Made by a program: the position numbers and the translations under genes. Below the pieces are notes generated by a model. It searched no databases. It had not been told where the DNA came from and worked only from the letters and a program-made list of their open reading frames with translations. From a virus, in the IMG/VR virus record IMGVR_UViG_3300027824_000441, positions 1-21,858 of that record: a stretch of DNA of 21,858 nucleotides. The stretch is one strand, 5' to 3'. Shown here piece after piece: positions 2,732 through 21,858 of this stretch (its first letter is position 1; every line of letters starts with the position of its first letter).

Positions 2732-4150
2732 ATGCTCGAGACGATCTGCACCCTGATTCCGCAGGATCCGCACTATCCGGCGCGCGTGCGCACGCTGGAC
2801 ATTCTGAAGCGTGTGCTGGACGGGAAGCTGTACGACGTCCTGCCGCACCAATTCCATGAAGAGCGCGGCGCGGGTGGCGAATATATCCCGCTGCGCAACC
2901 GCCGGCCCAGCGTCCGCTATGCGCTCTGCCGCGTCGTGGTAGAAGACAGCGTTTCGCTTCTGTTCAGCGAAGGCCACTTCCCGACGATCGATTGCGCCGA
3001 TCGCACGATCCGCGCGGCGCTCGCTGATATCGCCAAGGAGACCCGTCTCAACCTGACTATGACCGAAGCGGCGATGCGGGGCGCCATCGGCTCCGTCGCG
3101 ATTCTCATGCGCTTGCTTCGTGGCCGCGTCTTCTTCGACGTTCTCGATACCACGTACCTTATGCCGGAATGGGATCCGCAGGAGCCGGACACGCTGATCC
3201 GGGTAACCGAGAAGTACAAGGTGCCGGGCGCTTTGCTCGCTTCGAGCGGGTACGAGATCGCCGACACCGCGATTGACTACTGGTTCACGCGGAGTTGGGA
3301 CACCGAGGGCGAGACCTGGTTTTTGCCGCTGCCAGTCGGCAGCTCGTTCGAGGCGGACATCGACGAAGAACGCAGCGTTCAGCACGGCCTTGGCTTCGTG
3401 CCGATGGTCTGGATCCGCAATCTGCCTGGTCCATCGTCCACCGGCGACGTTGCCGATGGCGCCTGCACATTCCGTGCCGCAATCGAAACGCAAATTGAAA
3501 TCGACTACCAGCTCAGCCAGGCCGGCCGCGGTCTGAAATACAGCAGCGACCCGACACTGCTGATCAAGGAGCCGGCCAGCACCGACAACGAGATCATCAA
3601 GGGTGCCGGTAACGCACTGGTGGTCAGCGAGAAGGGCGACGCCAGGCTGCTGGAGATCGGTGGCACGGCTTCCGCCGCGGTCATCGAATATGTGCGGACG
3701 CTGCGCGAGCTGGCGCTGGAAAGCGTGCATGGCAACCGAGCGAATGCCGATCGCCTGACCGCGGCCCAGTCGGGCCGCGCACTTGAACTGATGAACCAGG
3801 GCCTGGTGTGGCTCGCCGACAACCTGCGCGTCAGCTACGGCGAGGGTGCCTTGCTGTCGCTCGCGCGCATGGTGCTGCGGGCCTCGCAGATCTATCGGCT
3901 GCGGGTCATGGGGCGCGAGCTCGCAGCGATGGATCCCGTAGCGCGACTCTCACTCAACTGGCCGCGCTGGTATCCGACAACTGCGGATGACCGGCAGAAG
4001 GACGCCCAGACGCTGAGCACCCTGGCGAATGCTGGCCAGATCAGCCGCGAGAGCGCGGTGAAGGCGATCGCCGACACGTTCGACATTGAGGACGTGCCGG
4101 CCGAACTCGCGCGGATCGCCGTCGACCGGAACGCCAACGGAAGCAACTGA
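2732..4150 (+). CDS. Phage portal protein
   Basis: The portal forms the dodecameric ring at the capsid vertex through which TerL packages DNA and to which the tail connectors attach. The 472-residue length and placement between terminase and scaffold/capsid genes fit. The N-terminal half is mixed alpha/beta, with the crown and wing-like stretches around residues 60-230. A helical segment (about 270-400), including AAQSGRALELMNQGL and the following helix, resembles the stem and clip of the SPP1 gp6-like portal group. The C-terminus is helical, beginning TTADDRQKDAQTLSTLANAG, a pattern common in portals of this group. It starts 28 bp after TerL with a weak ribosome site. Its stop overlaps the next start as TGATG, indicating translational coupling. 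Portal is secure; the exact subfamily is inferred. Confidence 0.88.
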   Translation: MLETICTLIPQDPHYPARVRTLDILKRVLDGKLYDVLPHQFHEERGAGGEYIPLRNRRPSVRYALCRVVVEDSVSLLFSEGHFPTIDCADRTIRAALADIAKETRLNLTMTEAAMRGAIGSVAILMRLLRGRVFFDVLDTTYLMPEWDPQEPDTLIRVTEKYKVPGALLASSGYEIADTAIDYWFTRSWDTEGETWFLPLPVGSSFEADIDEERSVQHGLGFVPMVWIRNLPGPSSTGDVADGACTFRAAIETQIEIDYQLSQAGRGLKYSSDPTLLIKEPASTDNEIIKGAGNALVVSEKGDARLLEIGGTASAAVIEYVRTLRELALESVHGNRANADRLTAAQSGRALELMNQGLVWLADNLRVSYGEGALLSLARMVLRASQIYRLRVMGRELAAMDPVARLSLNWPRWYPTTADDRQKDAQTLSTLANAGQISRESAVKAIADTFDIEDVPAELARIAVDRNANGSN

Positions 4151-4574: not shown

Positions 4575-6227
4575 ATGGGTATTCAGAATTTTCCGGCCGC
4601 CTTGCAACCGATCATCCAGCAGGGCTTCCTGGAGCGCGAATTCCAACAGGCGCTGAAGTCGCGGATCGGCTATCGTGCCTGCGCCGATCGGGTAAAGATC
4701 TCGGTCGGCATCGGCGAGACGCTGACCAGGACGCGCGCCGGGCTGAAGCCGAGTATTACGACGCCGCTGGCGGCGAGCACCAACACCAATCTCGATAACG
4801 GCATGACGCCGACAGGTTGGGGCGTAGAGCAGTACACGATCACGATCAACCATTACGCCGCTACGACCGACCTGAACATGGTCACGAGCCGCGTCGGCAT
4901 TGCGTCGCAGTTCCTGCAGAATGCCTATGTGAACGGCGAACAGGCTGCGCGCAGCCTGGACGAACTGGCGCGCAACGCCCTGTTCAGCAGCTATTTCGGC
5001 GGCAATACGCGGGTGCGCACCACGTTGGGAAGCCCCGGCACCGCTGTTTCGGTCGATGACGTTCGCGGCTTCCAGAATGCGTTCGTCAATGGCGTGCAGC
5101 AGACAGTTAGCGCGGCCAATCCGCTGACTGTCACTGTTGGCGCCAATGCCTACACACTGGTCGGCGTCACCGCCGATGTCACCAACGTCTCGACCGCTCC
5201 AAATGGCGTCTCCGGCGTGCTGACATTCTCGGGCAACGTGTCGGTGTCCGACGGCACGGCCGGCAATGCCGTGACGGCAGCCAATGCGTCGGTGATTGTC
5301 CGACCGTCGCAGCGTGCTACCACCGCCGCGCTGACCGCTACCGACATGCTCACGATGGGCAACCTGTTGGACGCGGTCTCCAAGCTGCGCATGAACGCGG
5401 TTCCGGAGATCAATGGTGTCTACAACTGCTATCTCGATCCCGTATCCGCCCGGCAGTTATTTGCGGATCCGGATTTCAAGCAATTGTTTCAAGGCGCTAC
5501 GTCCGCCAACCAGGTCTTCCGCCAAGGTATGACGAACGACTTCCTCGGCCTGCGGTTCGTCCCGACGACAGAGGCCTATGTGCAGGTGCATCCGGCGCTC
5601 GCCGGCCTGATGGTTCGGCGGCCGATCATCTGCGGCCAGGGCGCATTGATCGAGGGCGATTTCGCCGGTATGGCGGCCAAGGATGTAGCGCCGAAGGATT
5701 CGATCGTCGCTGTTGTCGATGACGTGGCGATGGTGACGCGCGAGCCGATCGACCGCCTGCTGCAGATCATTGCTCAGTCCTGGTACTGGATTGGCGGCTT
5801 GTGCGCGCCGTCCGATACTACGACCAACCCGAGCACGATCCCAACTGCCACCAACGCCGCGTTCAAGCGCGCCGGATGGTCGAGCACATCGGCTGATTCC
5901 CAGCAGACGGAACAGAACATGGCTATCGGCTCTATCACGCCATTCCGCCCAACTGGAACGGTTTCGCTCAGCGCGGGCACGGCATCCGCAGCAGTGCCCC
6001 TTGCCGGCGGAGGCGATTCGGTCGTGATAACCAACACCAGCGCCTCCCTCGCCTATGTGCGCTTTGGCGCCGATCCTTCGGTTTCGGCCTCGACCGCGGA
6101 TATGCCGGTGATGGCGAATGCGCGAGTGATGCTGTCAGTGAACAGTCTGGTCAGCTATGCCGCAGCGGTGCTCGCTGCCGGCAGCGGTGCAGTGCTGTTC
6201 ACTCGCGGCGACGGATCCTATCTCTGA
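4575..6227 (+). CDS. Major capsid protein with extra beta-rich segments
   Basis: The position after the scaffold, the good AAGAAGGA ribosome site (the best in the head module) and the sequence all support the main capsid subunit. The N-terminal arm and E-loop-like region cover about residues 1-110, with a helical spine-like segment at about 105-140 (ASQFLQNAYVNGEQAARSLDELARN). A Thr/Val/Ala-rich beta segment (about 175-245) interrupts the fold. The core continues with LLDAVSKLRMNAVP through the PIDRLLQIIAQSWYWIGGLCAPSD end (about 265-414). After a Thr/Ser-rich linker (414-450), a roughly 100-residue beta domain begins at ITPFRPTGTVSL and contains ADMPVMANARVMLSV. It resembles a fused decoration domain. 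An internal ATG at 5919 would allow that domain to be made alone. At 550 residues it is large. HK97 fold is inferred. Confidence 0.85.
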   Translation: MGIQNFPAALQPIIQQGFLEREFQQALKSRIGYRACADRVKISVGIGETLTRTRAGLKPSITTPLAASTNTNLDNGMTPTGWGVEQYTITINHYAATTDLNMVTSRVGIASQFLQNAYVNGEQAARSLDELARNALFSSYFGGNTRVRTTLGSPGTAVSVDDVRGFQNAFVNGVQQTVSAANPLTVTVGANAYTLVGVTADVTNVSTAPNGVSGVLTFSGNVSVSDGTAGNAVTAANASVIVRPSQRATTAALTATDMLTMGNLLDAVSKLRMNAVPEINGVYNCYLDPVSARQLFADPDFKQLFQGATSANQVFRQGMTNDFLGLRFVPTTEAYVQVHPALAGLMVRRPIICGQGALIEGDFAGMAAKDVAPKDSIVAVVDDVAMVTREPIDRLLQIIAQSWYWIGGLCAPSDTTTNPSTIPTATNAAFKRAGWSSTSADSQQTEQNMAIGSITPFRPTGTVSLSAGTASAAVPLAGGGDSVVITNTSASLAYVRFGADPSVSASTADMPVMANARVMLSVNSLVSYAAAVLAAGSGAVLFTRGDGSYL

Positions 6228-8229: not shown

Positions 8230-9792
8230 ATGCCAATTGTCCAGCAGGGCAGCATCAACACCACGGCACTCGTGGTGCCGGATCTCTATGTCCAGATCGT
8301 CCCGCCGCAGAACCTAGTGCTGAACGGCGTACCGACCAACGTGGTCGGCGTCGTCGGCACAGCGTCCTGGGGGCCGGTCGGCCAGCCCGTCATCGTCGCC
8401 ACGATGGCGGACTATGCCCAGAGCTTTGGGCCGGTCGTAGCGCGCAAGTACGATATGGGTACGCAGGTCGCGACGGCGGTGCAGCAAGGCGCGCAGAATT
8501 TTCGCTGCGTCAGGGTCACGGACAACACCGACTCGGCCGCACAGACCGTACTTCCCGGAACAACGGTGACCTTTACTGCGCTCTACACCGGCTCGCTCGG
8601 CAGCCAGGTCATGCTGACGCTGACGACGGGATCGAAGGTCAACACCTGGCGTTTGACCGTCTCGCTGCCAGGCCTCCAGCCGGAGGTTTACGACAATATC
8701 GCTGGAACCGGTGCGCTGTTCTGGTCGACCTTGGCCACGGCCGTGAACCAGGGCCAAGGGCCACAGCGTGGTCCATCGCAGTTCATCATCGCCAGCGCCG
8801 GTGGCGCCACGATCGCGCCGAGCGCCTTCTCCATCGCACTCGGTTCGACGACAGCCGGCTCGGATGGCGCAGCCAATGTCGCAGCAACGGGGCTCGTCGG
8901 TGCCGACATTCCGCCGCGCTCCGGCCTGTACGCGCTGCGCGGTCAAGGTTGCGGCATTGCGATGCTGGCCGATGCCGATGATCCGAACTACTGGACGACA
9001 CAGGCCGAGTTCGGGCTCGAGGAAGGCATCTATATGATCCTCACGGGACCGGCCGGCGATACCATCCAGAGTGCCGTCACCGTCAAGCAGCAGGCTGGAC
9101 TGGACAGCTATGCCGCTAAGCTGATGTTCGGCGACTGGCTGTGGTGGTCGGATCAGGTCAACAGCACCATTCGCCTGGTGTCGCCGCAAGGCTTCGCCGC
9201 CGGCCGCCTGGCGAATCTCTCACCCGAGCAGTCCAGCCTGAACAAACAACTCTACAGCGTCATCGGCAGTCAGAAGGCCGGCACCCCCGGCTCTAGCCAG
9301 AGCGCTTCCTACTCGTCCGCCGATCTGGCGGTGCTGTTGGGCGCTGGCATCGATGTGATCAGCAATCCACAGCCAGGCGGCAATTACTGGGGCGTGCGTG
9401 GGGGCCATAATTCGTCATCCAATGCGGCGATCAGTGGCGACAATTACACCCGGCTGACCAACTACATCGCGGCGACTCTCGCCGCCGGAATGGGCCAGTA
9501 TGTCGGCCAGGTGATCACCGCGGACCTGTTCCGCCGCATACGCGCCACGCAGTTGGCGTTTCTACAGAACATGCTCGGTCAAGGCCTGCTTGGTAGCACC
9601 GATGGCAGTTTGCCATTCAGCGTGATCTGCGACGCGTCCAACAATCCCTTCAGCCGGACCGATCTTGGCTACGTCCAGTCGGATGCGCAGGTGCAATACC
9701 AAGCGATCAACGAGAAGTTCATCATCAACCTGGAGGGCGGTCAGACGGTGCAAGTGTCCCATCAGACTCTGCCCAGCGGCCAGGCGGCATAA
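8230..9792 (+). CDS. Contractile tail sheath protein
   Basis: The sheath polymerises around the tail tube and contracts to drive the tube through the cell envelope. This protein has 520 residues, typical of the family. The N-terminal part has the sheath pattern GVVGTASWGPVGQPVIV (about 40-56), then DYAQSFGP. Variable beta-rich domains occupy the middle (about 110-270). The C-terminal domain that forms the inner conserved core includes DQVNSTIRLVSPQGFAAG, RRIRATQLAFLQNML and a terminal beta arm in EKFIINLEGGQTVQVSHQ. That arm is the extended strand by which sheath subunits usually interlock. It lies directly before the tube gene, as in P2 and Mu. Its presence makes this a myovirus. Confidence 0.92.
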   Translation: MPIVQQGSINTTALVVPDLYVQIVPPQNLVLNGVPTNVVGVVGTASWGPVGQPVIVATMADYAQSFGPVVARKYDMGTQVATAVQQGAQNFRCVRVTDNTDSAAQTVLPGTTVTFTALYTGSLGSQVMLTLTTGSKVNTWRLTVSLPGLQPEVYDNIAGTGALFWSTLATAVNQGQGPQRGPSQFIIASAGGATIAPSAFSIALGSTTAGSDGAANVAATGLVGADIPPRSGLYALRGQGCGIAMLADADDPNYWTTQAEFGLEEGIYMILTGPAGDTIQSAVTVKQQAGLDSYAAKLMFGDWLWWSDQVNSTIRLVSPQGFAAGRLANLSPEQSSLNKQLYSVIGSQKAGTPGSSQSASYSSADLAVLLGAGIDVISNPQPGGNYWGVRGGHNSSSNAAISGDNYTRLTNYIAATLAAGMGQYVGQVITADLFRRIRATQLAFLQNMLGQGLLGSTDGSLPFSVICDASNNPFSRTDLGYVQSDAQVQYQAINEKFIINLEGGQTVQVSHQTLPSGQAA

Positions 9793-9804: not shown

Positions 9805-10233
9805 ATGTCTCTGACTATGTTCTCTGTCGGCCGCGACACGCAGTTGGTCGTGATCGGCCCGACGGGACGCATCGATCTGGCCCACGTCACGTCGTTCGAC
9901 AGTCGCCAGCTCACCCAGTCGGTGCGGGTCGACCGGCTGGACGGTACTCAGATGGGCACCGAGTTGCCAAAGGGTTGGGAAGGCAGCTTCGAGCTCGACC
10001 GCGGCAGCTCGACCGTCGATGACTTCATCGCCGCCGCTGAACAGCAGTATTTCAACGGCAGCAGCGTCGCACTTGGTACGATGTATCAGTACGTCACCGA
10101 GACGGATGGATCCACGTCGACCTATCAGTATGACAATGTGAGCTTCCGATTAAGCAATGCTGGGATCTGGAAGGGCGACAGCAGCGTCAAGCAGAAGCTG
10201 GAATTCTTCGCCGTCCGCAGGCGTCGCATCTGA
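9805..10233 (+). CDS. Tail tube protein
   Basis: This forms the rigid inner tube of the contractile tail. The 142-residue protein is almost all beta, with LVVIGPTGRIDLAHVTSF, then GWEGSFELDRGSSTVDDFIAA and a strand-rich C-terminus ending in a basic RRRRI. That is a normal length and layout for P2/Mu-type tubes. An AAGGAG ribosome site eight bases before ATG 9805 suggests strong translation, as expected for an abundant structural protein. Its stop overlaps the chaperone start (TGATG). Confidence 0.82.
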   Translation: MSLTMFSVGRDTQLVVIGPTGRIDLAHVTSFDSRQLTQSVRVDRLDGTQMGTELPKGWEGSFELDRGSSTVDDFIAAAEQQYFNGSSVALGTMYQYVTETDGSTSTYQYDNVSFRLSNAGIWKGDSSVKQKLEFFAVRRRRI

Positions 10234-10580
10234 TGACCCCTTCCGCATCCATAGTGGCGGCCGCCACCACCACCGAGACTGTCATCGACGCTGACGGACG
10301 ACGGCTGGCCATCCGGCGGTTGAGCGCGCTCGACCGGCTCCGGCTGTTCAAGGCGGCCGGCCCGCTGCTGTCGCAGAACCAACCGTGGCTGGGCATGGCG
10401 CTGATCGCCTGTTCGGTGGCTGGCATCGATGACGTGCCAGTACCCCCACCATCCAACGAAATTCAGATCGAGGCCATGGTCGGTCGTCTCGGTGATGCTG
10501 GAATTGCTGCCGTCGCGCAGTCGTTGCAGCAATCCGCGGAACCCACCTTAGCGGAAGTGGTGGACAACGCGGGAAACTGA
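10233..10580 (+). CDS. Tail assembly chaperone, short form (G-like)
   Basis: This 115-residue protein is placed where phages encode the gpG/gpE-like chaperone that coats the tape measure before tail polymerisation. It has an N-terminal beta start (TVIDADGRRLAIRRL), then helices (ALDRLRLFKAAGPLL) and a second helical domain (QIEAMVGRLGDAGIAAVAQSLQQ). It ends right after the GGGAAAC slip site with TGA. It starts by TGATG overlap with the tube gene. Together with the downstream extension it forms the classical short/long chaperone pair. The assignment rests on this architecture, not on a recognised close relative. Confidence 0.8.
   Translation: MTPSASIVAAATTTETVIDADGRRLAIRRLSALDRLRLFKAAGPLLSQNQPWLGMALIACSVAGIDDVPVPPPSNEIQIEAMVGRLGDAGIAAVAQSLQQSAEPTLAEVVDNAGN
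10571..10577 (+). other. -1 programmed ribosomal frameshift site GGGAAAC
   Basis: In the zero frame the codons are GCG GGA AAC, followed at once by TGA. The heptamer G GGA AAC fits the X XXY YYZ rule: a one-base slip lets both tRNAs re-pair as GGG and AAA. It is the same class as lambda GGGAAAG. The -1 frame then continues to 10750. The site, its phase and the downstream chaperone-like sequence agree. Confidence 0.9.
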
Positions 10581-10750
10581 GCCGGCACCCCGACCTGATC
10601 GACTGCCTCTATCTGGTCCGGAACGGGGTGCCATTCGACGTAGCCTTCAGCCTGGCGGCCGATGAGCGAATGGCCTTCGTTGTCGCACTCGGCTCGTTGG
10701 ATGGCCGAGTGTTCGACTGGCAGGCCCTGCGTTGGAATTCGCGAACGTGA
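10577..10750 (+). CDS. Frameshift extension of the tail assembly chaperone (T-like domain)
   Basis: After the -1 slip, 57 residues are added, beginning LSRHPDLIDCLYLVRNGVPF and ending DWQALRWNSRT before TGA at 10748-10750. The long product would be 172 residues. The pattern (a Pro/Asp helix, NGVPFDVAFSLAADERMAF, then FDWQALRW) is the familiar T-domain type that recruits tape measure to the tube. It has no start codon of its own, so it exists only as a fusion. Its stop overlaps the next gene's GTG (GTGA). Confidence 0.85.
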   Translation: MSRHPDLIDCLYLVRNGVPFDVAFSLAADERMAFVVALGSLDGRVFDWQALRWNSRT

Positions 10751-11823
10751 CCGATAGCGACGCCACGAGGATCGGCAGCAGGCTAGCGCTAAGCCATGGA
10801 GTATCTGTCGCGATGGCCTTGCTGGAGCCGGAGCTGACAACACTCCACCGCACGGTCAGCGCCAACGCCGCGATGCTACAGACGATCACGCAGCTCGGCG
10901 AGGGATTGAACGCATTCAACGTCAATGCCGCACCAATCGCTGCGCCCTCGCGCGTTCGGCATTCGCCTGAATCAGATATGGAGCAATTAGGCCCGAACGC
11001 GCCACAACAGATTCGGGCTTCTGCCGCGTTTCGACCAACAGCGCACGATGTCCCTGGTCTGCGGACAAGTCCGGATCGGGCGGCACCACCGCGTCCGCGT
11101 AACATGCTACGACCCGACGGAGACTTGCCGCCACCTCGCCTGCTGCCGCGTCAAGCCGTGGCGATGGCTCCGCATGCGGCGTCACTTTCGACGAAGGCGG
11201 CGGCGGCTGATATCCCTAGCGTGGCGATCGCGCCGACAATATCATCCCCGGTCGGATCGCCATCGAGCAGCTCGAGCTCAGTCGCTGCACCGTCGATGGC
11301 TCCGCGTGCCCTCGAAATGGTGCGATCGCCACTGCCGGAGGCCGGCGCACGACCGGCTGCCGCGGCGCCAGTGACAACGATTGATGGGACCGGGACACCG
11401 CTGGATACCCGAGTGGAACAGATCGTCCTCGGTGCCATGGCCCCTGACCAGTCACCGCAAGTGGCCACCGACATCGCCATGTCACAAGAGGCCATTGACA
11501 TCGCCGCGTCGCAAGTGGCCACCGACATACCTCCGCCGGGAGCTGTCGCGCGCCGCGACGGTCTCAAGCTCGCCACCATGCCGGCCTACACCACAGGCGA
11601 TGCAGCGGTTGAGCCCGAGGAGCCACCGTCAGCATCGGCTCTCTCAGAGTCGCCGCAGGCCGATGCAGGATCGCATCAAGGCGTGCTCGTGCTGGACAGC
11701 ACCCAGCTTGGCAGCTGGGTGATCGATCATCTTGAGAGACACGCCTCGCGCCCAGGCGCAATGACGACGGGCATCGATCCCCGCATGAATGCCGCCTATC
11801 CCGGCGCACCAATGGGCGTCTGA
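10747..11823 (+). CDS. Short low-complexity protein in the tape-measure position
   Basis: The gene sits exactly where the tape measure belongs (after the frameshifted chaperone, before the tail-tip genes), but at about 358 residues it is short, and most of it is Pro/Ala/Ser/Thr-rich. There is one amphipathic helical part near the N-terminus (VAMALLEPELTTLHRTVSA to about residue 55). A long disordered middle (about 60-310) holds three 9-residue repeats. A better ordered C-terminus contains GVLVLDSTQLGSWVIDHLERHAS followed by GIDPRMNAAYPGAP. No membrane helices or long coiled coil are seen, unlike typical tape measures. GTG at 10747 overlaps the chaperone stop. A TTG at 10732 is a less likely start. 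It could be a truncated or diverged tape measure or another tail protein; the true role is uncertain. Confidence 0.55.
   Translation: MTDSDATRIGSRLALSHGVSVAMALLEPELTTLHRTVSANAAMLQTITQLGEGLNAFNVNAAPIAAPSRVRHSPESDMEQLGPNAPQQIRASAAFRPTAHDVPGLRTSPDRAAPPRPRNMLRPDGDLPPPRLLPRQAVAMAPHAASLSTKAAAADIPSVAIAPTISSPVGSPSSSSSSVAAPSMAPRALEMVRSPLPEAGARPAAAAPVTTIDGTGTPLDTRVEQIVLGAMAPDQSPQVATDIAMSQEAIDIAASQVATDIPPPGAVARRDGLKLATMPAYTTGDAAVEPEEPPSASALSESPQADAGSHQGVLVLDSTQLGSWVIDHLERHASRPGAMTTGIDPRMNAAYPGAPMGV
11458..11538 (+). repeat. Three tandem 27-bp repeats (9 residues each)
   Basis: In frame, the units read QVATDIAMS, QEAIDIAAS and QVATDIPPP. The first and third share an identical 18-bp stretch (11457-11474 and 11511-11528), so this is a recent or maintained expansion. 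It lies in the disordered middle of the tape-measure-position protein. Confidence 0.8.
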
Positions 11824-11827
11824 GTAC

Positions 11828-12013
11828 ATGGAAACTCTCCGCATCCCCTTCATTCTCTGGTTCAGTGGCGAAGCACCACCGAACCTCGCCTCGATAATGG
11901 CGCCCGTTGCCTTCGACGTGTCGTTCCTCGCTGACAGTGAGACAGTTCAGCAGAACGCGGAGACCGCCGACGAGTGCACGGTCATCACGAGAAGCGGTGA
12001 AGCCGATGTCTGA
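11828..12013 (+). CDS. Small protein of unknown function before the tail-tip genes
   Basis: This 61-residue ORF starts at ATG 11828, five bases after the preceding stop. It has a hydrophobic N-terminal part (RIPFILWFSGEAPPNL) and VAFDVSFLADSETVQQNAE in the middle. No family is recognised and no clear Shine-Dalgarno is seen. Its tight fit, with the next gene's start overlapping its 3' end, supports a real small tail gene. Confidence 0.55.
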   Translation: METLRIPFILWFSGEAPPNLASIMAPVAFDVSFLADSETVQQNAETADECTVITRSGEADV

Positions 12014-12746
12014 TGTGGCGCTGCTGCTTGGCCCAATCGTCTTTCAGGGCTTCGAGATTCCATCCGGGGTGAATTTCGGTGGCACGCAGCGGCTTGCATT
12101 GCACCGCCTGCCGGGCGGATCTCGGGTGATCGACGCGCTCGGGCGCGACGATGCGCAGATCAGCTTCTCCGGCATCTTCACCGGTTCGGACGCAACTTTG
12201 CGTGCCCGCAGCCTGGACCAGATGCGCGTCGCGGGCACTGCCTTGCCGCTGACGTGGGACGTGCTGTTCTACACCGTTCTGATCAGCGATTTTCGCGCCG
12301 ATTATCGCAACGGCTGGTGGATTCCGTATCGCATTGTCTGCACGGTTCTTCAGGACGAGGCCTCGGCACTCTTGCAGCCAGTGGTTTCACTCGGCACCGT
12401 CGCATTGGCGGATATAGGCGTGGCAGCCGGTTACGCATCGAATGCTGGCCTGGATCTGTCAACCCTGCAGTCGGCACTTGCCGCACCTGGTGCCACCACC
12501 CGCGGTACGGCCGCGTACACCACCGCCCAATCATGCCTTGCCGATGCCCAGTCCTCCATCGGCACTTCCATCAGTACGGCTGACGCCACGCTTGCAGGCA
12601 TGAACGTCGCGGATGTCGGTTCCGCCCAAATCGGCGTGGCAAATCTGCTTGCCGCGACCGATGCCGCAGGCCAGCTCAGTTCTCTGGTATCCGCCGGCGC
12701 CTATGTTCACCGCACGGCAACCAATCTGACGAGTGCGAGCACCTGA
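12006..12746 (+). CDS. Tail-tip protein, P2 gpU-like, with Ala/Ser-rich C-terminal helices
   Basis: The 246-residue protein has an N-terminal beta-rich domain (1-115) with RLPGGSRVIDALGRDDAQIS, then FSGIFTGSDA, ARSLDQMRVAG and LPLTWDVLFYTV. This is the pattern of P2 gpU-type proteins that join the tape-measure end to the baseplate. After about residue 118 comes an Ala/Ser/Thr-rich helical part without a clear family. The ATG at 12006 is chosen since it is in frame and lies only 8 bp before the previous stop; another ATG at 12013 is out of frame. The gpD, gpX and gpV genes follow in the usual order. The C-terminal extension may extend toward the hub, but that is inference. Confidence 0.65.
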   Translation: MSDVALLLGPIVFQGFEIPSGVNFGGTQRLALHRLPGGSRVIDALGRDDAQISFSGIFTGSDATLRARSLDQMRVAGTALPLTWDVLFYTVLISDFRADYRNGWWIPYRIVCTVLQDEASALLQPVVSLGTVALADIGVAAGYASNAGLDLSTLQSALAAPGATTRGTAAYTTAQSCLADAQSSIGTSISTADATLAGMNVADVGSAQIGVANLLAATDAAGQLSSLVSAGAYVHRTATNLTSAST

Positions 12747-12748
12747 CC

Positions 12749-12934
12749 ATGAAGACCATCACAGTCGTCGGCGACAACCTGTTCCGCATCGCTGCGGCAC
12801 AACTCGCCGATGCAACGCAATGGATACGCATCGCCGAACTCAATAGCCTTTCGGATCCAAACCTCGCGGGCGTGACGACACTGTTGATACCGGACATCGA
12901 TCCCGGTGCTGGAGGCGGTATTGCCGCTCAGTGA
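12749..12934 (+). CDS. LysM-like tail protein (P2 gpX-like)
   Basis: This 61-residue protein is almost a single LysM-type module: TITVVGDNLFRIAAAQL, then ATQWIRIAELNSLSDPNLAG, and VTTLLIPD. In P2-type tails gpX and its relatives sit between the tip protein and gpD, probably binding the hub rather than peptidoglycan. It begins two bases after the gpU-like stop. The last codons also hold the GGAGG used by the next gene. Confidence 0.8.
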   Translation: MKTITVVGDNLFRIAAAQLADATQWIRIAELNSLSDPNLAGVTTLLIPDIDPGAGGGIAAQ

Positions 12935-14018
12935 TCCGAGCTCTGTGTGGCGTGCTCCGCGCCTGCAGGTCATCGCCAACGGTCAGATCGTCACCGGGGC
13001 AATGGAAGCCGAAGTCATATCCAACAACTACTACGCAGCGGATCGGTTCAGTGCCTCGATTGTGCTGGGCATCGACCCATGGGCCGAAGCCCCCTTCTGG
13101 GCCAGCGAATCTGACATCCTACTGGACGTCCAGTTCAGTCTCGACGGAGGTGCGTCATTCACCAGCTTGGTGCAAGGCGCGGTTGACCGGGTGAGCATTG
13201 ATCCCACGTTCGGATTGGTTCATCTCGACGGGCGTGACCTCACGGCCTCGCTGATCGAGACCCGCACGCAGGAGACGTTCGCTAATCGCACGGCGAGCGA
13301 GATCGCCACGATTCTGGCGGGGCGCCACAATTTGATGCCTCGCGTTTCGCCTACCACGACTCCGGTGGGTCGATACTATCAGAGCGAGCATGATCGCATC
13401 ACGCTTGACCAGTTCAGCCGTGCCACCACCGAGTGGGACCTTCTGGTTTTTCTGGCGCGGCACGAGGGGTTTGACGCATTCGTCCAGGGCCAAGCTCTGT
13501 ATTTCCAGCCGGCGACACAGGCGGCCGATCTCGCGGTGTCGTTGCGGCCGGACGATGTGATCGATCTCAAGCTGGAGAGATCGCTGACCCTGGCACGCGA
13601 TATCGAAGTGGTGGTCAAGAGTTGGAACTCGCGGCAAAACAATGCGTTCATTCAAAGCGCGCGAGCCCTTTGCCGCAGCGGCACCGGACAATCCAACGGA
13701 TCGCCGCAACGCTATGTCTTCGTACAGCCTAATCTGACGCCAGATGACGCGTTGAAACTGGCCCAGCGTAAGCTCGCTGAACTGACACGCCATGAACGTA
13801 CCATCAGGATCAGCATGCCGGGCGAACTCGCGCTCAGTCCGCGCAGCCTGATCGCGCTGGAAGGGACCGGCACGGACTTTGATCAGACCTACTACATTGA
13901 CGTTATCGAACGCCGACTGCGCCAGGATGGCGGCCTGATGCAACGCATTCTCGCGAAAAACACCTCGCCGCGTACTGAGACGACCACACCAAACGACACC
14001 GATGGCGGTACGACATAA
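12921..14018 (+). CDS. Baseplate hub protein (P2 gpD / T4 gp27-like)
   Basis: gpD-type proteins form the trimeric hub linking the tube to the spike. This 365-residue protein has the right order: a beta-rich N-terminal barrel (LQVIANGQIVTG, then ASIVLGIDPW and VDRVSIDPTFGLVHLDGRDL), a middle helical part with LDQFSRATTEWDLLVFLARHEGF, and a C-terminal barrel with PGELALSPRSLIALEGTG and FDQTYYIDVIERRL. A TTG at 12921 is preferred because a GGAGGCGG (12911-12918) lies just upstream within the LysM gene. GTG at 12906 is the alternative and adds five residues. The C-terminus ends in a Thr/Asp-rich tail. The gpV spike gene follows 3 bp later. Confidence 0.85.
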   Translation: MPLSDPSSVWRAPRLQVIANGQIVTGAMEAEVISNNYYAADRFSASIVLGIDPWAEAPFWASESDILLDVQFSLDGGASFTSLVQGAVDRVSIDPTFGLVHLDGRDLTASLIETRTQETFANRTASEIATILAGRHNLMPRVSPTTTPVGRYYQSEHDRITLDQFSRATTEWDLLVFLARHEGFDAFVQGQALYFQPATQAADLAVSLRPDDVIDLKLERSLTLARDIEVVVKSWNSRQNNAFIQSARALCRSGTGQSNGSPQRYVFVQPNLTPDDALKLAQRKLAELTRHERTIRISMPGELALSPRSLIALEGTGTDFDQTYYIDVIERRLRQDGGLMQRILAKNTSPRTETTTPNDTDGGTT

Positions 14019-14021
14019 CGC

Positions 14022-14537
14022 ATGGAACGGCTTCTCAATCTCATCAAGCAGCACGCAGGTGCGCTCGATCAAGGCGGCAGCCAGCCGCGCTTCGCCACGG
14101 TCACGTCCGTGAATTCGACGGCCGCGACGGTGCGGGTCACGCTGCAGCCGGAAGGTGTGCTCAGCGGCTGGCTGCCTGTGCTCTCGCCGTGGATCGGAGC
14201 CGGGTGGGGCATGTATAGCCCTCCCTCTCCTGGCGACCAGGTCCTGGTTCTCGCACAGGAGGGTGACGCCGAGCATGGCATCATTGTGGGACGCGCGTTC
14301 TCGAATACGCAGACACCCCCCGCTGCACCGGTCGGCGAACTGTGGCTGATGCACAAGTCCGGCAGCTGCATCAAGCTGCAGAACGACGGAACGATCCAGA
14401 TGCACGGCGACCTGCACGTCGCAGGCGATGTCTACGATCAGCAAGGCTCGCTGTCGCGCTTGCGTGGCCACTACGATGCGCACACGCACACCGATTCCCG
14501 CGGCGGCACGACGAGTGCGCCCAACCCATCGGACTGA
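14022..14537 (+). CDS. Baseplate spike protein (P2 gpV-like)
   Basis: This 171-residue protein forms the cell-puncturing spike. The N-terminal OB-fold-like domain (about 20-95) has FATVTSVNSTAATVRVTL and GDQVLVLAQEGD. A short helical beta region follows with HKSGSCIKLQNDGTIQMHGDLHV and AGDVYDQQGSL. The C-terminal apex carries DAHTHTDSRGG (H154, H156), the His-x-His arrangement that binds iron at the tip of P2 gpV-type spikes. The apex and short beta-prism make this a compact spike. Order after gpD and before gpW is canonical. Confidence 0.88.
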   Translation: MERLLNLIKQHAGALDQGGSQPRFATVTSVNSTAATVRVTLQPEGVLSGWLPVLSPWIGAGWGMYSPPSPGDQVLVLAQEGDAEHGIIVGRAFSNTQTPPAAPVGELWLMHKSGSCIKLQNDGTIQMHGDLHVAGDVYDQQGSLSRLRGHYDAHTHTDSRGGTTSAPNPSD

Positions 14538-18887: not shown

Positions 18888-21464
18888 ATGCCGACAATCG
18901 ATCAGCTCGCGCCCGCCACGGCCGCGTCCGACAACGACGAATTACTGGTCAGCCAAAGCGGCATCGCCCGCAAGGTAACCAGGGCACAGGTCCTCGCGGG
19001 TGTTCAGCCACAGCTTGCGATCAGTTGCGGAACCCTCGTCGGTCGCGCCAGCGCCGGCGTGGGTGGCCCCGAGCCGATCAGCATTGGCGCCAATCTTAGT
19101 CTGACCAACGGTGCTCTGTCGGCCAACGCTGCACCGTTCAATGTCGCATCGCTGGCCGCTGGCACAGTACCGGCCAGCAACGATCTCGTTCCGCTCGGGC
19201 AGAGCGGCAGCAACACCGCCGTTCCTTACACCCAGTTCATGAGCGGACTTGCCGGCATTGGCAACGTCGACATCAGCCAGCTTCTGGTCACGCCGACCGG
19301 CACAACGTCACCGACCACACTTTGCGACCTTGCCGCGAATACGCTGCCATTGTCCGGCGGTGCGCTGAACGGTACGCTGACGCTGGCGGCTGATCCTGTC
19401 GCGTCGCTACAGGCGGCAACCAAGCAGTATGTGGATACGCGTGTATCGCGAAGTGGTGACACGCTTACTGGAGCATTGGTGCTAGCAGCCGATCCGACGG
19501 CGCCACTCCAGGCCGCGACGAAGGGCTATGTCGATACACAGGTCGCAACGACGCTGCCAACGTCGGGCGGCAGTCTAACGGGTAGCCTGACTCTGGCAGG
19601 AGATCCTTCGACGCCTCTACAGGCTGCTACGAAGCAATATGTCGACGGATCCGGCGTTGTCACCTTCAATGCGCGCGGCGGCGCCGTGGCGCTCGCGAGC
19701 AAGGACGTGACCGATGCGCTGACGTTCACGCCGTACAACGCAACCAACCCGAGCGGCTACCAGACGGCGACCAGCGTCACCGCGGCGATTGCCGCCGGCA
19801 ATTCTGGCGCATTCAGTACATTGTCATCGTCGGGTGCAGTGTCTGGAATTGGCTTCTCGACCTACCTGGCCTCGCCTCCGGCCATTGGCTGCACAGCTCC
19901 AGCGGCAGGCGCGTTTACTACATTGGTGTCTGGCCAGATCACAGGAGCTACGGGCGGAGCAATCACGGGCTTCGGCACTGGTGTCGGGCAGGCGCTCGGG
20001 CCTATGGTCAACTATCAAGCGTCCGGCATCCCCGGCCTGCTTCTCAACAACCAGGTTATCGTCGGTCGGGCAAGTCCGGCGTTCAACGATGGCAACGATT
20101 TGCGAATCCGCCGAGCGTCTGCGTTTTCAGGCGGTACAAGTAGCAACATAAACTCTGCCCTGGTCGTCGACGTAGGCGCGGGGGCAAATGACGGGACCCA
20201 AAACTGGGCGTTCCTGTCGAAGATAAGTGCCGGCAGCACCGTCGGCGGCATTGCAGTCGGCGGTTACTTCCAGGTCCATCGGCCAGTCGGGGCGGCGTCT
20301 CCAAGTTGGGCATTGATCTCGGAGGCGTCGGATCTTTCTCTGCAGCCGTCATCGGTGTCCGGTGCGATTGTGTCTCAGGAGTGGGACCTTGGAGCCGCTG
20401 GATTGGACGACGGCGCCAATGCAAACCGCTTCGGCGGCGTTGGCGTGCGCCAGATGATACATGCGGTCTTCGCGCAGGAAGATACGGTGAATAATCCTGT
20501 CACTGAGTTCACCGCTGGCATTTGGATGGGAACGCAGACAAACTGCTATGTTGACAGCTCTTACTGCTTCCAGAACAATACAGAAATCCGTCAAGCGCTC
20601 GATACCAGAGGCGCCATACCACCGACTGGATCGACCGATCCGGTAGCAGCGGTTCGCATGACGGCCGGGCACATCATCGACTTCAATGGTGGCGCCGCAC
20701 TGAACAGCGCACCCGGCAGATATCTGCAATACGCCACCTCCGGTACCGCGCGGTTGCGCTACATGAACGGGGCAACCGAATTGCTATCCATTTCGGATGC
20801 CGGCGCGGTGACGGTGGGGAACCTTTCGGCTTCAGGTACAGTGAGCGGTGCTGGGTTCACCTCGCTTCTGGCGCCGTATGCGCTGGTCACCAACGTGCCG
20901 GCCGGGGCAAGCTCCACGCCCGCGATGGATGGCACTGCCGTGGCCGGCACGGCAACGACGTGGGCGCGCGCGGACCATGTGCATCCCACCGACACGTCGC
21001 GTGCTCCCGTTGCATCGCCTCCATTCACCGGCACTGTTGGCCTGACGTCGGCGAAGTGGACGGGCAGTACATTGTCGATCTGTCAGTCAACATCTGGCTC
21101 CCAGTTCATGTGTTTGAATGACACCGGCGCGACACTTGCCTCTTTTTTCAATTATCGTTATATCTCGGGGACCAACTGCCTCGTCATGGAGGCGGCTGGG
21201 GCCTCAGCTAACCTGTTGCTACAGGGAAACGGCGGCGGCAGTGTAGTTTTGCCCCTCGTCTCTGTGACCGGCGGCACGATCAACGGCACGGCGATCGGCG
21301 GCACGACAGCAGCGTCCGGCAAGTTCACCACGTTCGGTGCCAACAGCGCTACGCCTTCGGGCAAGGTCACCGTCACCGGCTCGCGCAGTGGCAACGCGGC
21401 GCTCGCCTCGCTGCTGACCGCGATGGCCACCTTCGGCCTCATTACCGACAGCTCCACAGCGTGA
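18888..21464 (+). CDS. Long tail fibre protein
   Basis: The N-terminal part MPTIDQLAPATAASDNDELLV, then GIARKVTRAQVL, is a common tail-attachment start. Three ATK-YVD repeats follow (LQAATKQYVD, LQAATKGYVD, LQAATKQYVD; residues 153-253). These are the classic stalk units of fibres. Then come AAGAFTTL and GATGGAITGFG units, a distinct central domain (about 370-590; VIVGRASPAFNDGNDLRIR and FTAGIWMGTQTNCYVDSSYC) that may fold as a receptor-binding module, and WARADHVHPTDTSRAPVASP (about 690-710). It ends with GGTTAASGKFTTFGANSA and RSGNAALASLLTAMATFGLI, a motif family frequent at fibre ends. At 858 residues it is a normal long fibre. A GAGAGG lies 11 bases before the ATG. It would determine host range. 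Confidence 0.8.
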   Translation: MPTIDQLAPATAASDNDELLVSQSGIARKVTRAQVLAGVQPQLAISCGTLVGRASAGVGGPEPISIGANLSLTNGALSANAAPFNVASLAAGTVPASNDLVPLGQSGSNTAVPYTQFMSGLAGIGNVDISQLLVTPTGTTSPTTLCDLAANTLPLSGGALNGTLTLAADPVASLQAATKQYVDTRVSRSGDTLTGALVLAADPTAPLQAATKGYVDTQVATTLPTSGGSLTGSLTLAGDPSTPLQAATKQYVDGSGVVTFNARGGAVALASKDVTDALTFTPYNATNPSGYQTATSVTAAIAAGNSGAFSTLSSSGAVSGIGFSTYLASPPAIGCTAPAAGAFTTLVSGQITGATGGAITGFGTGVGQALGPMVNYQASGIPGLLLNNQVIVGRASPAFNDGNDLRIRRASAFSGGTSSNINSALVVDVGAGANDGTQNWAFLSKISAGSTVGGIAVGGYFQVHRPVGAASPSWALISEASDLSLQPSSVSGAIVSQEWDLGAAGLDDGANANRFGGVGVRQMIHAVFAQEDTVNNPVTEFTAGIWMGTQTNCYVDSSYCFQNNTEIRQALDTRGAIPPTGSTDPVAAVRMTAGHIIDFNGGAALNSAPGRYLQYATSGTARLRYMNGATELLSISDAGAVTVGNLSASGTVSGAGFTSLLAPYALVTNVPAGASSTPAMDGTAVAGTATTWARADHVHPTDTSRAPVASPPFTGTVGLTSAKWTGSTLSICQSTSGSQFMCLNDTGATLASFFNYRYISGTNCLVMEAAGASANLLLQGNGGGSVVLPLVSVTGGTINGTAIGGTTAASGKFTTFGANSATPSGKVTVTGSRSGNAALASLLTAMATFGLITDSSTA
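19344..19646 (+). repeat. Three stalk repeats in the long fibre gene
   Basis: Each unit runs about 31-36 codons and reads roughly LSGGxLxGxLxLAADPxxxLQAATKxYVD (residues 153-183, 187-216 and 223-253). Related units recur in the fibre fragment at 21535-21810. Such repeats help recombination between fibre genes. Confidence 0.8.
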
Positions 21465-21468
21465 GGAA

Positions 21469-21858
21469 ATGGCCGGCCTCCGACTGTCTGCAAGCCGACG
21501 CCGACGCATCTGCTGTAGCTGCGCGACCGGTGCGATGACGCTGGCGTTCGACCCCACGAGTTCGTTGCAAGCCGCGACAAAGCAGTATGCCGATACGCGC
21601 GTATCGCGCAGTGGCGACACGCTCACCGGAGCGCTGGTGCTAGCCACCGATCCGACGCCGCCGCTGCAGGCTGCGACCAAGGGATATGTCGACACGCGGG
21701 TAGCCTGTGCCCCGCCCAAGGCGGACGGCACGCTCGCCGGCGCACTGACCCTGTCAGCCGAATCCAGCTTGTCGATGCAGGCAGCGACCAAGAACTATGT
21801 CGATGCACAGGCAAGCCGCTGGATCTCGGTGTGCAGCGGTGTCCAGGTCGCGGCATGA
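21469..21858 (+). pseudogene. Truncated partial copy of the long-fibre stalk region
   Basis: The ORF begins with an odd, Arg/Cys-rich start (MAGLRLSASRRRRICCSC) and then reads GAMTLAFDPTSSLQAATKQYAD, SGDTLTGALVLATDP and LQAATKGYVD, and a third unit ending MQAATKNYVD. It is closely similar to the long fibre repeats, with clear nucleotide identity to 19404-19538. It has no fibre N-terminus or C-terminus, the GAGGA before ATG 21469 is too close (one or two bases) to be effective, and the ORF stops at 21858 after a short tail. It is in another frame from the main fibre. This looks like a leftover of a duplicated fibre gene, or a donor segment for recombination. Confidence 0.6.

Follow-up and report, generated by a model that had tools for sequence, protein, structure and literature searches.

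In tailed phages, the C-terminus of the tape measure docks on the baseplate initiator, and a chaperone coats the tape measure until it is displaced by tube subunits. The described systems closest to the locus studied here are the Komagataeibacter phages phiKX1 and phiKX2 (LC644975 and LC644976), which share its gene order and chaperone frameshift and are the sole phage-collection records to match its portal (43 %), capsid (54 %), sheath (51 %) and gpU-like (45 %) proteins together. However, these phages are temperate, carrying an integrase, repressor-type and other early genes, and their tape-measure slot encodes a 742-residue protein that matches tape-measure profiles, alongside a tail of 98.9 nm. 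P2 gpT and the PHROG family phrog_28 (tail length tape measure) occupy the same slot in the same order (sheath, tube, frameshifted chaperone, tape measure, U, X, D) and are related to our slot protein through homology of the ends, by way of long relatives, but they possess what it is missing, namely the core, a hydrophobic span and the greater part of the length.

Other described systems offer partial parallels. In RcGTA, the gene transfer agent (GTA) of Rhodobacter capsulatus, the tape measure is ~216 residues long and the 49 nm tail contains five tube discs (PMC7296036). RcGTA may be considered analogous to the cluster described here, as a set of resident, vertically inherited head–tail genes with a short tape measure, but it is siphovirus-like and non-contractile, with a helix-rich tape measure and proven DNA transfer. 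Tme and Sle1, from Streptomyces contractile injection systems, may represent a further analogy, in which a tape measure has been repurposed in a contractile particle and, in Tme, contains long disordered regions; however, both are larger than the slot protein, have added nuclease or helical domains and do not belong to headed particles. In acetic acid bacteria, contractile particles with very short tails (46.6 nm and 15 nm) have been recorded after mitomycin C treatment (PMC8566455, Table 1). Four shared phage-like contigs from a Sphagnum virome that align with Acetobacteraceae genomes encode gpVWJ baseplate domains, with cryptic phage or co-option mentioned as explanations (PMC12142844). The tape measure, inheritance and domestication lay outside that study (PMC12142844), and the contigs are likened to our locus here by host family and baseplate domains.

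Gene order of the window and the protein in the tape-measure slot

The stretch of DNA analysed, hereafter the window, is a virus record of 21 858 bases, and its host was inferred from its relatives. Two flanking genes lie on the reverse strand: a response-regulator-like gene (positions 1–480), found in the same place upstream of terL in 11 other contigs, and a lipoprotein-like gene (644–1192), found directly upstream of terL in 24. The cluster itself lies on the forward strand and begins with the terminase large subunit (1282–2703; assigned by order and conservation across relatives), followed by the portal (2732–4150; 43 % to the phiKX1 portal), the major capsid protein (4575–6227; 54 % to the phiKX1 coat protein), the tail sheath (8230–9792; phrog_23 tail sheath, 2e-45) and the tail tube (9805–10233; assigned by position and order). 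A 115 aa tape-measure chaperone (10233–10580) in the position of Mu gp41 and P2 gpE contains the slippery heptamer GGGAAAC (10571–10577), and the TGA (10748–10750) closing its −1 frame extension (10578–10750) overlaps the slot gene's GTG start (10747). This heptamer was kept in 102 of the 130 loci examined, with AAAAAAC in 25 others, and the frameshift is real in form. Beyond the slot are a gpU-like gene (12006–12746; phrog_21362, by position and order), a gpX-like LysM gene (12749–12934; PF01476, 6e-5), the gpD-like baseplate hub (12921–14018; PF05954, 5e-5; phrog_52, 4e-25) and the gpV-like baseplate spike (14022–14537; PF04717, 8e-13). From sheath to gpV this is the gene order of P2. A small ORF of ~61 codons (METLRIPFILWFSGEAPPNL...), with counterparts at L002 and L009, lies between the slot and the gpU-like gene (11828–12013) and overlaps the gpU start. 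The window ends in large repeat-containing fibre-like proteins (18888–21464 and 21469–21858), and relatives carry two or three fibre-like genes ahead of the lysis genes.

The slot holds a single ORF of 358 codons (10747–11823, forward strand, stop at 11821–11823), in agreement with the ~358 codons originally predicted between the frameshifted chaperone and the next tail gene. It lies where a tape measure is expected, between the tail chaperone and the baseplate-hub genes, and end homology and structure prediction point to a shortened tape measure. The other hallmark of a tape measure, a long helical or coiled-coil core with a hydrophobic span, was absent by AlphaFold2 and hydropathy, and searches against Pfam, PHROG, NCBIfam and annotated phages returned zero matches. 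Proline, alanine, serine and threonine account for 46 % of the whole protein and 51 % of residues 61–311 (251 residues, 15 % proline, few aromatic residues), compared to 26–42 %, with 1–7 % proline, in the remaining window genes. AlphaFold2, using a 10-sequence alignment, predicted helices at residues 4–60 and 318–333 and no structure for residues 62–311 (mean pLDDT 44.9). The original prediction of a largely unstructured protein rich in these four residues was therefore borne out. So too was the lack of a hydrophobic span, since the highest 19-residue mean hydropathy was 1.12 and the protein is therefore without a membrane span; what that description had passed over is that two short end helices are the conserved parts.

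Three parts can thus be distinguished. The conserved N-terminal end (residues 1–60; 10747–10926) is a predicted helix akin to the N-termini of long tape measures, the disordered middle (residues 61–311; 10927–11679) replaces the tape-measure core and includes three imperfect 27-nt tandem repeats (11458–11538), and the conserved C-terminal end (residues 312–358; 11680–11820) carries the motif LDxxxLGxW..RP.....G.DPR....PG. Nei–Gojobori dN/dS values between the window and close relatives, for which dS was saturated in some comparisons, were 0.16–0.37 for the first 60 residues, 0.30–0.49 for the middle and 0.11–0.30 for the last 60, with the middle reaching 0.66 and 1.03 in two further pairs and neighbouring genes at 0.03–0.21. 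The ends, like the chaperone and the tail genes, are under purifying selection (0.11–0.37 for the ends in most comparisons), and constraint on the middle is weaker (0.30–1.0). The frame is also open in >100 relatives, and with the selection on its ends this makes the slot ORF more than a chance reading frame.

Long relatives, direction of change and a relocated gene in Acidocella

A scan with the sheath gave 513 viral-contig and 144 genome matches, of which the best 80 of each were retained; the titles of these best 80 genome matches were nearly all Acetobacteraceae, Rhodospirillales or plain Proteobacteria, and many of the genomes used were metagenome bins. Across 104 loci the slot ORF measured 248–523 codons from stop to stop (median 344), and 95 of the 104 short proteins lacked a hydrophobic span. 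Slot length varied about two-fold among relatives and by ~15 % among close ones, a spread equally compatible with a linker and with a ruler. Many relatives have an extra gene of ~120 residues between the chaperone extension and the slot (~110–150 codons at L025, L051, L057, L064, L080 and G066), which by eye resembles HK97 gp10-type or virion morphogenesis proteins; the window is without it.

Proteins of 630–810 residues occupy the same slot in phage phiKX1, in Rhodovastum, Aquitalea and Pantoea plasmids and in three genome loci. All eight of the long slot proteins tested were matched through their middle by phrog_28, and all eight contained a hydrophobic span (19-residue mean of at least 1.65). 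A profile of the final 60 residues, built on 80 short proteins and searched against 10 894 ORFs from held-out loci, recovered the long slot ORFs of L186 (1e-11), L165 (3e-10), L142 (2e-9), L200 (2e-7), L166 (9e-7) and L164 (1e-5), and more weakly that of L167 (0.013). The N-terminal profile, whose set included some mis-cut members, recovered those of L186 (4e-10), L166 (1e-4) and L164 (2e-3). The phiKX1 slot protein (L163) was reached neither by the C-terminal profile among these held-out ORFs nor by the N-terminal one. Profile comparison thus shows the termini of the slot protein to be homologous to those of the 630–810-residue tape measures of related phages. As the end profiles match long tape measures in the same slot, the slot protein can be regarded as a real tape measure, by an indirect link in which its ends are homologous to long proteins that in turn match tape-measure profiles. 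An eroded tape measure had been one of the alternatives originally put forward, with a comparison to relatives for an internal deletion set beforehand as the check; the ends are retained and the middle is lost relative to the long proteins, and this alternative is now well supported.

In a five-protein tree rooted on beta- and gamma-proteobacterial relatives, the long state was ancestral and at least four long-to-short changes were inferred. With a support of 0.98, the long L142 was placed as sister to the window's clade, in which 109 of 109 loci were short or had the gene moved. Short slot proteins also occur in another, more distantly related group of Acetobacteraceae clusters (L201–L205 and L188–L196), apparently through independent shortening. 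On three contigs (G219:C1, G182:C2 and G251:C3; L190, L197 and L198) two differing sheath types were seen at a distance of ~15 kb from each other, which suggests two tandem tail modules.

At nine Acidocella-type loci, only 172–238 bp separate the chaperone from gpU, and GGGAAAC with an extension of 54–62 codons is kept in all nine. The possibility that some relatives have no tape measure was rejected for six of these nine loci (all but L143, L144 and L162), as the C-end profile found a short gene in six of the six genomes searched. In the mapped cases this relocated gene follows directly on the lysozyme and holin-like genes at the cluster's distal end; in G001 it lies 18 kb away from the sheath. 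The N-terminal motif had no recognisable copy in Acidocella, and the head and tail genes of the clade are still under purifying selection (dN/dS about 0.03–0.4). The idea that the real tape measure is elsewhere holds for this one clade as to position, but the gene found there is the same short protein relocated. The C-terminal region is also shared with L240:1798–3324, L241:2212–3153, L243 (reverse strand) and L244:1610–3049, which have differing long N-terminal parts. Such orphan C-end ORFs occurred in two Acidocella-type MAGs only, both inside and outside the cluster, and domain searches on their N-terminal parts gave no convincing family match; they are possibly C-tagged cargo.

Resident character of the gene cluster

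A related sheath was present in 132 of 299 Acetobacteraceae genomes; at an identity of at least 66 % it was present in 86 (~29 %), as a single copy in 83 of these 86 (rows counted by hand). The mapped clusters extend from terminase, by way of the fibre genes, as far as the lysis genes, and their housekeeping flanks, called with a simple codon-score caller, are common to related hosts. No integrase, repressor or replication genes were seen in the mapped clusters, and among the matches listed there was no integrase within 100 kb on the sheath contig. Host congruence was examined in 23 genomes by comparing the element tree with an rpoB tree, the rpoB ORFs having been confirmed by an RpoB motif check. 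The two trees had 8 of 20 splits in common (permuted mean 0.18, maximum 3), and the Mantel correlation between element and host was 0.60 (0 of 10 000 permutations).

Published criteria for a GTA are that it is endogenised, is vertically inherited, cannot be packaged as a whole element and delivers DNA to other cells (PMC9662315). Two of these four were recognised here, namely endogenisation without autonomous mobility genes, and vertical inheritance with host co-diversification (PMC9662315). Known here from sequence alone, the cluster would best be described as a GTA-like resident element of Acetobacteraceae and not as an ordinary phage. An ordinary free phage was rejected on the lack of mobility genes, the conserved flanks and the host congruence, and a contractile injection system or tailocin on the presence of terminase, portal and capsid genes. 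The contractile tail argues against membership of the RcGTA-like GTAs (Rhodogtaviriformidae), and a GTA-Hunter search of 24 Rhodospirillales genomes found zero RcGTA-like clusters (PMC6821227). Taken as a whole, the original prediction is partly supported, having missed both a vertically inherited resident locus and the clade-wide extent of the short state.

Tail length and competing explanations

We consider it probable that the slot protein is a genuine tape measure that a GTA-like domestication has pared down to its two functional ends, and that it serves a short contractile tail. A phiKX1-like phage would have been domesticated into a GTA-like resident element, and its ruler shortened in the process. 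On the gpU/LysM/gpD initiator, the C-terminal end would still seed the growing tube; together, the N-terminal helix and chaperone would still mark the point at which the tube stops, and the flexible middle would bridge the two ends to give a short contractile tail. As both ends are kept, seeding and termination can survive shortening of the ruler. With the hydrophobic core lost, the slot protein would supply no membrane-inserting segment, and DNA would then have to enter through contraction or by means of other tail proteins.

Calibration on phiKX1 (98.9 nm for 742 residues, or 1.33 Angstrom per residue) predicts a tail of ~48 nm for 358 residues, and the RcGTA ratio (49 nm for ~216 residues) would by analogy predict ~81 nm; we estimate 50–80 nm, provided that the disordered linker keeps the residue ratio. 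The very short tails that were originally predicted follow if length still scales with the slot protein. A disordered proline-rich chain is an odd ruler, and could either be extended, at ~3 Angstrom per residue, to give a longer tail, or coiled to give a shorter one.

Less likely, although still credible, is a loss of the ruler role, whereby tail length is set otherwise, the ends have been kept only for starting the tail on the baseplate and for plugging or loading the tube, and the middle links them passively or carries cargo, as in the tape-measure-related effectors found in contractile injection systems. The variable length of the middle and its dN/dS of up to ~1.0 would fit such a loss, as would the departure of the gene from the slot in one Acidocella clade without its being lost, the extra ORFs joining the C-terminal region to differing N-terminal parts in two Acidocella MAGs and the tape-measure-derived effectors of Streptomyces (PMC11126660, PMC13277306). 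However, the C-end, found in 95 of 299 Acetobacteraceae genomes, is nearly always single-copy, the orphan copies are limited to those two MAGs and have N-terminal parts without a known domain, and the chaperone and frameshift are retained in nearly all relatives examined. A further reading, which we regard as doubtful, would be a contractile GTA lineage independently domesticated in Acetobacteraceae, in which the tape measure has been repeatedly cut to docking ends on a disordered linker and the C-end has become a movable loading tag that, in some Acidocella, has been fused to other N-terminal domains to make deliverable cargo.

It is improbable that the protein acts as an extended ruler, with 358 residues of a polyproline-like chain at ~3 Angstrom per residue spanning a normal tail of ~100 nm. 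The retained ends and a middle with 15 % proline and few aromatic residues are compatible with this, but proline is far less frequent in many relatives, notably in Acidocella, and length is poorly conserved; no tape measure is known to work as an extended chain, which also counts against it. Decay of a prophage, leaving the slot protein as a functionless, degenerating remnant, seems more improbable still: the protein is short and of low complexity, the coding signal of its middle is weak and a stop is present in 5 of ~90 close sheath copies, but the head and tail genes are under purifying selection (dN/dS about 0.03–0.4, the Acidocella clade included), the ends are conserved, the frames are intact and the element has co-diversified with its hosts. 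Use of a distinct, full-length tape measure encoded at another place in the host genome, an original suggestion that a window of only 21.9 kb would allow, is unsupported and very improbable on the evidence of relatives, as phrog_28 recovered the long tape measures of the controls G285, G208 and G146 but no long tape measure in the short-type genomes G055, G258, G219 and G182, giving two weak matches in G003 and a single marginal match (0.086), with internal stops, in six Acidocella genomes.

It has long been asked which parts of a tape measure are indispensable. If the slot protein does represent a tape measure pared down to its ends, these clusters would provide a natural deletion series, in which the slot holds 630–810, 250–520 or, where the gene has been relocated, zero codons while the other tail genes are under selection. 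They would also represent a widespread (~29 % of the sampled Acetobacteraceae genomes, at a sheath identity of at least 66 %), usually single-copy contractile GTA-like element that has been filed among phage contigs in virus databases, and one in which shortening of the tape measure may be tied to domestication, as in RcGTA.
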